Shown: one piece after another, positions 1,168 to 24,921 of the stretch
How positions within the stretch are numbered: the stretch's first letter is position 1
Layout: each line of letters starts with the position of its first letter
NCBI RefSeq assembly: GCF_031458325.1
Contig: NZ_JAVDYG010000001.1
Location: forward strand, 1,054,001 to 1,118,000
Source of the DNA: Nocardioides marmoribigeumensis
Lineage (GTDB): Bacteria > Actinomycetota > Actinomycetes > Propionibacteriales > Nocardioidaceae
Length of the DNA: 64,000 nucleotides
Reading direction: 5' to 3'
Notes under the pieces: model-generated
What the model saw: only the letters and a program-made list of their open reading frames with translations
Database searches by the model: none
Told to the model about the DNA's origin: nothing
Program-made: the position numbers and the translations under genes

Positions 1168-2337
1168 TCAGCGCCGGCGCTTGGTCATCCACATCGTCGG
1201 GTCGCCCGGGGTGAAGCCGGCCGGGCGGTAGCCCGCGCGGCGGTACATCCGCTGGTTGCCCGCGCTCGTCCCGCCGGTCACCAGGCCGTAGGACGTCGCC
1301 TCGGCCGGCGCCCACTCCTCGCAGCGTTCGAGCAGCCAGCGGCCCAGCCCGCGGCCCTGCAGGTCGGGGGCCACCATCAGGCGGCCGACGACCCAGGTGG
1401 TGCCGTCGGAGCCGCCCAGCTGCCCCCGGACCGACCCGACCAGCCGGCCGGCGCTGCGCAAGACCCAGGTGCGCCAGCGGTCGAGGTCCGAGACGACCTG
1501 GTCGAGGTCCTCGTGCAGCGCCGGGACCTCCAGGGTGTCGAGCCCCAGTGCCTCCTGGAGCCAGCACGCGCGCTGCAGCGTCCAGAGCTCCCCCGCGTCG
1601 GCCCGGGTGGCCGGCCGCCACTGCGCGTCGGTCACGGTCGCCGGGGCGAGCAGTGCGCTCGGCGGGAGCAGGTCCGGGCGGCGCGCCGCCGTACGGGCGA
1701 GGGACTGGGTGTGGCGCCACCGCTCGATCGCGCCGTGGTCGCCGCCGAGCAGGACCTCGGGGACCTCGAGGCCGCGCCAGGACGGGGGGCGGGTGTAGAC
1801 GGGGTACTCCAGCAGGCCCGACTCGTGGGACTCCTCGAGCAGCGAGTCGGGGTTGCCCATGAACCCCGGCAGGAGGCGTACGACCGCCTCGAGCACCGCG
1901 AGCGCGGCCACCTCGCCGCCGTTGAGCACGTAGTCGCCGAGGCTCACCTCGAGGACCCGCACCCGGGTGGCGGCGTGGTCGAGGACGCGCTGGTCGATGC
2001 CCTCGTAGCGGCCGCACGCGACGACCAGGTGCTCCTCGGCCGCCAGGGCGCGGGCGTGGATCTGGGTGAACGGGACGCCGGCGGGGGTGGGGACCACCAG
2101 GACCGCATCGTCCGTGGCGAGCGCGTCGAGGGCCTCGCCCCACGGCTCGGGGCGCATCACCATGCCCGCTCCCCCGCCGTAGGGCGCGTCGTCGACGGTG
2201 CGGTGACGGTCGTGGGTCCAGTCCCGCAGGTCGTGCACGCGCAGGTCGAGCAGGCCGCTGCGGCGGGCCTTGCCCGGCAGGGAGAGGTCGAGGGCGTCGA
2301 GGTACGCCGGGAAGATCGACACCACGTCGACGCGCAC
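1168..2337 (-). CDS. trmD: tRNA (guanine37-N1)-methyltransferase fused to a GNAT acetyltransferase domain
   Basis: Residues 1 to about 235 are a complete TrmD, which methylates N1 of G37 in tRNAs to prevent +1 frameshifting. Knot motifs are visible: [13 protein letters not shown] (about 106-118), [11 protein letters not shown] (132-142) and the GFMGNP/EESHE segment. Residues about 238-389 form a second domain with the GNAT acetyl-CoA loop [11 protein letters not shown] (about 327-337) and a C-terminal [10 protein letters not shown] block. The total of 389 residues compares with about 230-270 for ordinary TrmD. Both domains are in one uninterrupted frame. The ATG at 2337 is one base past the rimM stop, so translation is probably coupled. 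The acetyl acceptor is unknown. Confidence 0.95.
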
Positions 2338-2338
2338 G

Positions 2339-2878
2339 TCAGTCCTCGGGGTCGAGCAGCCCGGGCCGGTCGGCGACCGTGATGGTCCCCGCGGTCAGGT
2401 CGACCTCGGGGACCAACGCCGAGACGAACGGCACCATCGCCTCGCGGCCGTCGTCACGTCGTACGACGAGCACGTCCTGGGCGCCGGAGTGCAGCACCTC
2501 CGCCACGACCCCGACCCGCTCCCCCTCGAGCGGCTGGACGGCCAGGCCGACGAGCTGGTGGTCGTAGAATTCCTCGGGGTCCTCGGGCCGCTCCTCAGGG
2601 GTGACCTCCACCGACAGGAGGCCGTTGCGCAGGCCCTCGGCCGCCGTACGGTCCGAGACGCCGGCGAAGGTCGCGAGCAGCCGCTCCTGGTGCCAGCGGG
2701 TCCGCTCGACGGTGAGCGTGGAGGGCCCGGGTGCCGCGCCGCGGGGCGCCTGCAGCCTCACGACCGCCCCCGGGGCCAGCCGGCGCTCCGGCTCGTCGGT
2801 CCGCAGCTCGAGGCTCACCTCACCGCGGATCCCGTGCGGCCGCCCGATCCGGGCGACGACGACCTGTCCCGGCTCCAT
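2339..2878 (-). CDS. rimM: 16S rRNA processing factor RimM
   Basis: RimM binds S19 and helps mature the 30S head. At 179 residues it is normal length: an N-terminal RimM beta-barrel beginning [18 protein letters not shown], and a C-terminal PRC-barrel with [10 protein letters not shown] and [14 protein letters not shown]. The ATG at 2878 has a GAGGAG ribosome-binding site. It is followed by trmD with one intervening base and preceded by a nested-palindrome repeat that separates it from khpA. Confidence 0.96.
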
Positions 2879-2902
2879 CGCTCCTCCTCAGGTGGGGGGT
2901 GC

Positions 2903-2990
2903 GGTTTCACTAGGTACCTAGTGAAACTGGCACTCCCCGAGCGAAACTTCGCTCGGGGAGTGACAACACCACTAGGTACCTAGTGAAACC
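2903..2990. repeat. 88-bp nested-palindrome element, copy 1
   Basis: Terminal inverted repeats of 21 bp (2903-2923 and 2970-2990) flank a central hairpin with 15-bp arms and a 2-nt loop (2931-2945 and 2948-2962). The left end is itself a 24-bp perfect palindrome (2904-2927); both ends share the core CACTAGGTACCTAGTG. It lies between khpA and rimM inside the ribosomal operon, 11 bp after the khpA stop. A near-identical copy lies at 24351-24436. It looks like a REP- or MITE-type dispersed element; no transposase is linked to it here. Confidence 0.9.
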
Positions 2991-3001
2991 GAACCAGGGC
3001 C

Positions 3002-3241
3002 TCAGCGGCGGCGGTCGACGTCCACGAAGTCGATGCGCGCGCCCCCGCGGCCCAGGGCCCCGACGACGGTGCGCAGCGAGGTGGCCGTGCGGCCGTTGCG
3101 TCCGATCACCTTGCCGAGGTCGTCGGGGTGCACCCGCACCTCGAGCAGGTCACCACGACGGGTCTGCTTGTCGCGCACCGAGACGTCGTCGGGGTGCTTG
3201 ACGATCCCCCGGACCAGGTGCTCCAGCGCGTCGGCGAGCAT
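3002..3241 (-). CDS. khpA: KH-domain RNA-binding protein KhpA
   Basis: A 79-residue single KH domain with the GXXG loop GRNG at 47-50 (context DLGKVIGRNGRTATSLR). KhpA proteins bind RNA and, in firmicutes, work with KhpB in cell-division and sRNA control; that role is not shown here. The ATG overlaps the rpsP stop by one base (TGATG), so translation is probably coupled. The position between rpsP and rimM is conserved in Gram-positive bacteria. Confidence 0.93.
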   Translation of the reverse strand: MLADALEHLVRGIVKHPDDVSVRDKQTRRGDLLEVRVHPDDLGKVIGRNGRTATSLRTVVGALGRGGARIDFVDVDRRR

Positions 3242-3828
3242 CAGGACTCGGTGGTCTCGGTCGACTCGGAGGCGGCCTCGACCGGAGCGGCCGGGTCCTC
3301 GATGCCCTCCGACGAGGCGCCCGTGGCCTCGACGGCCGGGGTGTCCTCGGTCGTCGCGTCGCCACCGGTGGCCTCGACACCGGCCTCGGCGGTCGCCGCG
3401 GTCGCCTCGGGGGTCTCCTCGGCGGCGGCCTTCTTGGCCGGCTTCTTCTCGGCCTTCTTGGTCACGGCCTCGGTGTCGAGCGAGCCGCCGGACTCCTTGA
3501 GGATCTCGTTGAAGATCTCCTGCTTGGACTTCTTGGGCTCGGCGACCTTGAGGGTGCCCTCGGCGCCCGGCTCACCGGTGAACTTCTGCCAGTCGCCGGT
3601 GATCTTCAGCAGCGCGGCGACGGCCTCGGTCGGCTGCGCGCCGACACCCAGCCAGTACTGCGCGCGCTCCGAGACGACCTCGATGACCGAGGGGTCGTGC
3701 TTGGGGTGGTACTTGCCGATCTCCTCGATGACCCGGCCGTCACGGCGGGTGCGGGAGTCGGCGACGACGATGCGGTAGTAGGGCTGACGGATCTTGCCCA
3801 TCCGCTTCAGGCGAATCTTGACGGCCAC
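3241..3828 (-). CDS. rpsP: 30S ribosomal protein S16 with long acidic/Ala tail
   Basis: S16 assembles early into the 30S body. The first 110 or so residues are a standard S16 ([33 protein letters not shown]). The remaining ~85 residues are a Lys/Ala stretch followed by a Glu/Thr/Ala-rich disordered tail, making 195 residues against about 80-90 in Escherichia coli. Extended S16 tails are common in actinobacteria. The start is GTG at 3828, with GAGGAG about 13 bases upstream. It heads the operon rpsP-khpA-rimM-trmD-rplS; the 124 bp upstream should hold the operon promoter. Confidence 0.97.
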
Positions 3829-23658: not shown

Positions 23659-24237
23659 CTACTGGTCCTTCGGGTCCTTCGGGTCCTGCTGGTCCCGCGC
23701 CAGGCCCTGCAGGGCTGCCCAGCGTGGGTCGATCTGGTCCTCGTGACCGTGCTCCGGATCGTCCGCGAGCCGGGCGCCGCACTCGACGCACAGCCCCGGG
23801 CAGTCCTCCCGGCACAGCGGCTGGAACGGTAGCGCAAGCACGACCGCATCGCGAAGCGGTGGCTCCAGGTCGAGCAGGTCGCCCTCGAGCCGGCTGGTCT
23901 CGTCGTCCTCGTCCCCGGCGGCTTCCCGCGCGGACTCCTCGTCGTCGTACACGAAGAGCTCCACGAGGTCGACCGTCACCTCGTCGGTGACCGGGTCCAG
24001 GCACCGCACGCACTCCCCGCGCAGCTCGGCGCGAGCCGTGCCGGTGACCAGGACGCCCTCGACGACCGCCTCGAGCCGCAGGTCGAGGTCGACCGGCGAG
24101 CCCTCGGGGACGGAGAGGACCTCGATCCCGAGATCTGCCGGTGCCGGCACCGAGGTGGCCACGTGACGCTCGGTCCCCGGCCGTCGGCCGAGGTCACGAG
24201 TGTCGAGCACGAGCGGCGCTCGTCGGTCGAGACGCAC
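23659..24237 (-). CDS. yceD: YceD family protein (DUF177)
   Basis: 192 residues with the paired cysteines of the family: CVRCLDPV in the middle and [13 protein letters not shown] near the C-terminus. YceD-family proteins are linked to 23S rRNA accumulation; in bacteria and plastids they are found beside rpmF. The C-terminal DPKDPKDQ tail is followed by a CAG/CAC-rich 94-bp gap before rpmF. Confidence 0.92.
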
Positions 24238-24350
24238 GGCACAACCTTCGGATCACGGCGGACAGATCACGGCCCTCGCATCGTCAGACGCCACGAGGAC
24301 CGTCGTCCATCGTATCGCCGGACCCCCGGACGGCCAAAACGCCGGGTGCA

Positions 24351-24436
24351 GTTTCACTAGGTACCTAGTGAAACTGTCACTTCCCGAGCGAAGTTTCGCT
24401 CGGGGAGCGAGAACTTCACTAGGTACCTAGTGAAAC
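24351..24436. repeat. Nested-palindrome element, copy 2
   Basis: Terminal inverted repeats of 20 bp (24351-24370 and 24417-24436) with core CACTAGGTACCTAGTG flank a central hairpin (about 24381-24405). The left end is again a 24-bp palindrome. Compared with copy 1, the stem carries one G-U-compatible change and the loop region differs, so the structure is conserved more than the sequence. It starts two bases beyond the coaD stop and separates coaD from yceD. Confidence 0.9.
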
Positions 24437-24438
24437 CG

Positions 24439-24921
24439 TCAGCCCCGCTCCGCCAGCCGGGTGCGGAGGCGCTCCAGGACGTGGGGCGGCACGAGGGCCG
24501 AGACGTCGCCGCCGAAGGTCGCGACCTCCTTGACCAGGGAGGAGGCGAGGAAGGAGTACTCCGGGCTGGTCGGCATGAAGACCGTCTCGACCGGCGACAG
24601 GCTGGAGTTCATCTGGGCCATCTGGAGCTCGTAGTCGAAGTCGCTGACCGCGCGCAGGCCCTTGACGATCGCGCTGACCCCGCGCTCCTCGCAGAAGTCG
24701 GTGAGCAGCCCGGTGAACCCCGCGACCACGACGTTGTCCCACGGAGCGACGGCCTCGGTGAGCATCTCCAGCCGCTCCTCGGCGGTGAACAGCCGGTTCT
24801 TGGACTTGTTGACCCCGACCGCGACGATCACCTCGTCGAAGAGGGCGGAGGCACGGCCGACGATGTCGATGTGACCGTTGGTGACGGGGTCGAAGGACCC
24901 GGGGCAGGCGGCGCGTCGCAC
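24439..24921 (-). CDS. coaD: Phosphopantetheine adenylyltransferase
   Basis: Transfers AMP from ATP to 4'-phosphopantetheine in coenzyme A synthesis. 160 residues with the nucleotidyltransferase motif PGSFDPVTNGHIDI near the N-terminus and the substrate-binding region around SVSAIVKGLRAVSDFDYE. GTG start at 24921, nine bases after the rsmD stop. A palindromic element begins two bases past its stop. Confidence 0.96.
   Translation of the reverse strand: MRRAACPGSFDPVTNGHIDIVGRASALFDEVIVAVGVNKSKNRLFTAEERLEMLTEAVAPWDNVVVAGFTGLLTDFCEERGVSAIVKGLRAVSDFDYELQMAQMNSSLSPVETVFMPTSPEYSFLASSLVKEVATFGGDVSALVPPHVLERLRTRLAERG

Follow-up and report, generated by a model that had tools for sequence, protein, structure and literature searches.

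Palindrome-flanked hairpin repeats in Nocardioides and their candidate partner, a gene for an AbiEi_4/PD-(D/E)XK-like protein

To our knowledge, dedicated pairs of a bacterial repeat family and a gene are known only with tyrosine transposases. In the REPIN-RAYT system (REPtron), as described in the relevant sections of PMC3116915, PMC8049555 and PMC3733652, the repeats have mirrored conserved ends, form a long hairpin, show compensatory changes in the spacer and lie outside genes, and the gene is flanked by a matching repeat. In TIRtrons, according to the sections of PMC3733652 devoted to them, inverted repeats lie on both sides of a gene and some of these repeats are also dispersed; the TIRYT proteins retain the HUH domain and the catalytic tyrosine. 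The repeat-gene system of Nocardioides marmoribigeumensis considered here resembles REPIN-RAYT in its many short extragenic palindromic repeats and in the mirrored doublets that fold into one hairpin, and resembles TIRtrons in its flanked gene and dispersed repeats. It differs from both in that the Y1/HUH tyrosine transposase domain (PF01797) has no match in seven genomes; the place of the transposase is taken by an AbiEi_4/PD-(D/E)XK-like protein. The repeat end also differs from that of REPINs, being a perfect palindrome with no GTAG/CGTC tag in the consensus of 21 copies (by eye), as do the hosts, which are Actinomycetes; the term "Actinobacteria" is absent from the main text of PMC3733652.

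The element was recognized in a window of 64,000 nucleotides, the whole stretch of DNA that was analysed. The original prediction had described an 88-bp element lying just past stop codons between same-strand genes, with palindromic ends around a central hairpin, and this observation is confirmed: both copies are in place, with conserved edges that give the limits in Table 1, and all the neighbouring genes are on one strand. The palindrome, P (CACTAGGTACCTAGTG), is perfect over 16 bp and occurs twice in each window copy, with starts 62 bp apart, flanking the hairpin, H; its halves (GTTTCAC...GTGAAAC, 10 bp apart) resemble parS half-sites. Because the two P's are mirrored around H, one strand by itself forms a single long hairpin, with a computed energy for single-stranded DNA of -45 kcal/mol for copy 1 (z -14.60) and -36.3 kcal/mol for copy 2 (z -10.63), values equalled by 0 of 200 shuffles in either case.

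Table 1. Features of the window around the two copies of the element (window positions)
Feature	Positions	Strand	Remarks
Copy 1, P-hairpin-P element	2902..2991		between khpA and rimM
Palindrome P left, copy 1	2908..2923		CACTAGGTACCTAGTG
Central hairpin H, copy 1	2931..2962		arms 15 bp, centre 2 nt
Palindrome P right, copy 1	2970..2985		
Copy 2 of the element	24349..24438		between coaD and YceD/DUF177-like gene
Palindrome P left, copy 2	24355..24370		
Central hairpin H, copy 2	24378..24409		
Palindrome P right, copy 2	24417..24432		
khpA-like gene	3002..3241	-	stop faces copy 1; name read from translation
rimM-like gene	2339..2878	-	downstream of copy 1; name read from translation
rpsP	3241-3828	-	copy 1 downstream of rpsP; name read from translation
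coaD-like gene	24439..24921	-	stop abuts copy 2; name read from translation
YceD/DUF177-like gene	23659..24237	-	downstream of copy 2; name read from translation

The further claim that differences between the copies keep the stem is not perfectly borne out by the window pair: the stem of copy 2 contains an A-C mismatch and a G-T pair. Over the 37 short copies of three genomes (G000, the source of the window; G002; G277), 83.8% of stem cells pair vs 31.4-48.5% in slid controls. These 37 copies have a covariation score of 0.180, which 0 of 500 shuffles reach (shuffled mean 0.123), while pairs altered on both sides number 8, no more than the shuffled mean of 8.0. In the same set P is almost invariant and H is variable. 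An intrinsic terminator with a T tract was rejected, none being present within window positions 2600-3400, and a known Rfam RNA was likewise rejected, positions 2700-3300 giving five matches at E<=1, all under their gathering scores. The element may yet have a role in termination or RNA processing. Near copy 1, at window positions 1168-2337 on the minus strand, lies a TrmD-like ORF with an additional C-terminal stretch that looks acetyltransferase-like by eye.

The number of copies had been put at two, and this proved far too low. In the genome that supplied the window (4,440,796 bases in one contig) P has 62 matches with up to two mismatches vs 1 for the reversed palindrome, and 56 exact matches vs 0 for the reversed control. 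The loci fetched from this genome, which by our own count cover 55 of the 56 exact matches, contain 21 short P-H-P forms of about 90 bp, found in both directions by the orientation rule, four long forms of the type P-H-inner ... inner-H-P, and seven single half-elements whose partner is absent from the stretch fetched. An ORF heuristic places a 3' gene end within 20 bp of 17 of the 21 short copies, three of the 17 overlapping the ORF by 14 bp; copy 1 itself is scored as a miss because khpA is below the 100-residue limit. Among the long forms, L005 encloses an AbiEi_4 gene, L019 a sigma-factor-like gene pair, and L010 and L031 have no long gene, their P's being 193 and 301 bp apart. The contents of L019 (G000 C1:2091940-2093418), a sigma-70 region-4 gene and a second ORF, look like passengers, as does a methyltransferase-domain ORF enclosed by P-hairpin ends in another genome (L039, G002 C1:736500-737576). 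In several of the long forms (L005, L010, L031) a motif, GTACGACG/CGTCGTAC, recurs close to the inner ends. Several draft contigs start or end near elements (L061, L064, L081; G010 C4, C13, C14, C16), as expected since repeats break assemblies.

The distribution of the repeat among relatives differs from species to species. At the site of copy 1 both flanks are matched in four congeners (G001, G002, G003, G004) and the element is absent between them, G004 having a different, longer spacer; at the site of copy 2 the same is true of G001 and G002, G003 being uninformative on the right side because only the left flank is matched. In the sequence retrieved from these four congeners P is absent, even with three mismatches allowed. 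The window copies, missing at the matching spots, therefore look like insertions, although the main flank matches are only about 70-85% identical, so that exact ends and target duplications are unreadable; a clear target-site duplication is not evident at the two window sites, the congeners being too diverged to read one. Exact P occurs in 3 of 294 family genomes, namely G000 (56), G002 (19) and G277 (28). In a contig collection, from which records near the source genome may be missing, extended P was found only in Nocardioides speluncae, in 22 stretches. The element is thus neither confined to two copies without relatives nor fixed at identical loci in all relatives, and its reading as a REP/MITE-type repeat is supported: the copies are scattered, form hairpins and lie for the most part close to the 3' ends of genes, and the two in the window are lacking at the matching spots of congeners. 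The original interpretation as a whole is partly supported; the RAYT-type transposase proposed as part of it gave way to a different partner, described below.

The gene found in long forms specifies a protein whose head is an AbiEi_4 domain (P0001 in G000, P0002 in G002). A search with P0002 (E<=0.001) gave 79 matches, distant DUF559-type proteins among them, with at least one in each of the 21 family genomes selected and in each of the 16 genera. An alignment was made of 26 of the 30 matches retrieved as loci, from 17 genomes, leaving out the distant L095-L098, and a search of 118 Actinomycetes genomes with this alignment (E<=1e-20) had matches in 87. Pfam AbiEi_4 is matched in 23 of the 26 proteins. 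E206, Q224, E249, D251, G252, K255, E273, R276 and R290 (numbering of L079) are among the residues invariant across the alignment and D238 is nearly so; the series E249-x-D251-G..K255 and its companions, together with D238, are interpreted as forming a PD-(D/E)XK-like core. Weak Pfam matches to DUF559 (2 of 26, best 1.8e-4) and MTES_1575 (3 of 26, best 0.041) go with this motif reading, and the tail is predicted to be a PD-(D/E)XK-like nuclease. The PDB holds no sequence relative. At E<=1 every one of the 26 is matched by the PADLOC AbiEi model, the best value being 2e-23; in the first of them the match covers the N-terminal half.

The Y1/RAYT transposase model (PF01797, Y1_Tnp) has no match in any of the seven genomes searched; a control search for PF01797 was positive in 5 of 14 named genomes, and the transposase search covered the Y1 type. 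This absence places the repeat-gene system outside the REPIN-RAYT family. With the DUF559/REase_MTES_1575 proteins the partner shares an E-x-D-G core and a tail that is probably related, but it differs from them in its EFDG..KY signature and in the bracketing repeats, ends that four DUF559-type relatives do not have. With the AbiE type IV toxin-antitoxin system it shares the AbiEi_4 N-terminal domain, but here the head is fused to a nuclease-like tail, and by eye no second plausible gene accompanies it in the two cassettes inspected (L005 and L040). Among the matches listed from the open-access literature, no title or opening of an abstract connects palindromic repeats with AbiEi, with DUF559 or with nucleases of this type. 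A phage or plasmid origin of P0001 was rejected (one weak plasmid match at 26.9% identity, 0 phage matches), as were a plasmid origin of the element (0 plasmid matches) and a viral origin (eight viral-contig stretches fit the P0002 pattern, 0 confirmed).

Repeats of the same kind bracket the gene itself. Scored for inverted repeats in 500-bp flanks, with 22 or more taken as strong, 22 of 25 scorable family genes have strong ends, whereas none of 600 random 945-bp blocks, overlapping and drawn from the window and stretches of four genomes, reaches 22 (maximum 18). L081, the 26th gene, lies near a contig end and was left out. The genes below the cut-off are L091 (10), L093 (14) and L103 (12), the last of which is a fragment and scores 28 with 1500-bp flanks. 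None of the four distant DUF559-type relatives (L095-L098, typed by motif, by eye) has strong ends. At the level of the class, 17 of 23 full-flank loci pass and 6 fail, the figure outside the family being 11 of 17, several of which share a locus; 7 of the 30 class-level loci have short flanks and are uncounted, and L150 and L153 duplicate earlier loci. Among the flanks listed, a hairpin and a perfect palindrome of short length are often present in the gene ends, their sequences varying from genome to genome; bracketed genes with differing palindromes span 13 genera.

Palindromes were read off gene flanks and each was searched in 17 genomes, giving four patterns beyond P. TTCACCGGCCGGCCGGTGAA occurs 48 times in G010 and 11 times in G008, TYCCCAGGTNNACCTGGGRA (a single degenerate pattern covering both genomes) 25 times in G023 and 11 times in G008, with 0 in the 15 others in each case; TTCGCTACACGTGTAGCGAA occurs 10 times in G017 and not in the 16 others; and TTACCACGTKMACGTGGTAA, with up to one mismatch, 16 times in G009, twice in G018 and not in the 15 others. 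All four are dispersed in the genome or genomes that supplied them, the only matches elsewhere being the two one-mismatch matches to the G009 pattern in G018, and the reversed controls give 0. Also counted are the copies that flank the gene, numbering two in every case but G010, where the gene lies close to the end of a contig and one is present. In G008 two palindromes each flank their own gene (L084, L102). In family f20 a hairpin taken from gene ends, searched with up to two mismatches in 14 genomes, has 35 matches in G333, 23 in G350, 12 in G365, 3 in G320, 1 in G390 and 0 in the remaining 9; its reversed control has 1, in G000. For G320 (3), G390 (1) and G018 (2) the near-matches are to patterns derived from the genes of other genomes, and the G365 gene that was read (L157) has a diverged hairpin. 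The gene of G277 (L099) has a palindrome differing from the dispersed P at 4 of 16 positions; this genome has four gene matches, two of which were left out of examination. The paired arrangement recurs with the other palindromes: of 20 regions taken from four further genomes, the majority of them chosen as pair-like, 16 contain a P-spacer-P pair, with spacings of 62 (G008), 61 (G017), 84 (G010) and 80-118 bp (G023).

The history of the gene appears unlike that of a proliferating insertion sequence, as judged from paralogues that are 33-45% identical (one pair per genome, nine genomes). Neighbours, identified by eye, point to common loci. L078 and L080 adjoin one thiolase-like neighbour, with ends that differ, and L099 and L100 adjoin another, possibly the same one. 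An FBP aldolase-like neighbour is found at ten loci of different genera (L087, L093, L094, L106, L164, L166, L167, L169, L173, L177), of which three (L093, L166, L177) are without strong ends. Common loci with differing ends suggest that the gene has been long retained while its ends changed fast. At three loci one genome has the gene and the other only repeats with its own palindrome (L031/L078, also L080; L042/L082; L016:5093/L083), hinting at homogenisation or at repeated insertion at hot spots; L031 of the source genome is the same locus as L040/L078 of G002. In G001, which has 0 exact P, L080 (C4:78808-79635) belongs to the gene family, but its C-terminus appears to be frameshifted and its palindromes are imperfect.

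The repeats are, on balance, probably non-autonomous, REPIN-like mobile elements mobilised by the paired AbiEi_4/PD-(D/E)XK-like protein. The data show the repeats, their architecture, their presence or absence in different species and, for the genomes tested, the coupling of a repeat family to a chromosomal gene that itself has P-hairpin ends of this type. The AbiEi_4 winged-helix head, expected to be a DNA binder, would most likely recognise P, and the PD-(D/E)XK-like tail would most likely nick or cut at or near the folded repeat, which could then be duplicated or transferred to other extragenic positions immediately after stop codons. Binding of P, nuclease activity and mobilisation by this protein are what we infer, and the system would most likely work like REPIN-RAYT with a non-homologous partner.

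Several other explanations have to be weighed against mobilisation by the paired protein. That the repeats are ordinary REP/RAYT elements, as mirrored, hairpin-forming palindromes near gene ends might suggest, is scarcely credible, being contradicted by the absence of PF01797 from the seven genomes searched, with a control that found it elsewhere. A more serious rival, though an unlikely one, holds that the protein binds P as a regulator or as a 3'-end factor and that the repeats, as its binding sites, are retained because they serve gene ends, whether by terminating transcription, insulating convergent genes or stabilising mRNA 3' ends; their spread would be due to recombination or another enzyme. 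The proximity of most short copies to a 3' gene end, the stricter conservation of P than of the hairpin, the occurrence of genes at common loci and the Pfam description of AbiEi_4 as a transcriptional regulator domain would all suit such a factor, but congeners lack the window copies, nuclease-type residues are invariant or nearly so over the 26 proteins, and 291 of 294 family genomes are without P, though a different palindrome is possible there.

The finding of other genes inside P-hairpin ends, the sigma-factor-like pair of L019 and the methyltransferase of L039, means that the AbiEi_4 gene could itself be a frequent passenger, and a rather improbable alternative therefore holds that it is the favoured passenger of an unrelated, unseen transposase recognising those ends. 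Gene-less long forms fit this as well as the other passengers do; against it, the gene is bracketed in 13 genera by differing palindromes, each tested one of which is dispersed in the genome supplying it, so that the unseen transposase would have to be a second family, as diversified as the first. Much less probable still is self-marking or defence, in which genomic palindromes would act as a DNA antidote that restrains or guides the nuclease and whose loss would be harmful: the PADLOC AbiEi model does match every protein, but the two cassettes inspected show by eye no second plausible gene, and P0001 has a single weak plasmid match and no phage match.

If the paired protein does mobilise the repeats, its AbiEi_4/PD-(D/E)XK-like family would be an unrecognised class of repeat-mobilising enzyme, and a role would be suggested for proteins that defence models label merely AbiEi. 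Chances seem about even for the broader proposition that these widespread actinobacterial proteins are an independent second solution of the REPIN-RAYT type, long kept and copying hairpin repeats, each with its own palindrome and with fast-changing DNA specificity. A non-homologous repeat-gene pair, its gene family being present in 87 of the 118 Actinomycetes genomes sampled, would, if true, provide a second independent case for studying how repeat populations persist, together with many ready-made pairs of protein and palindrome specificity.
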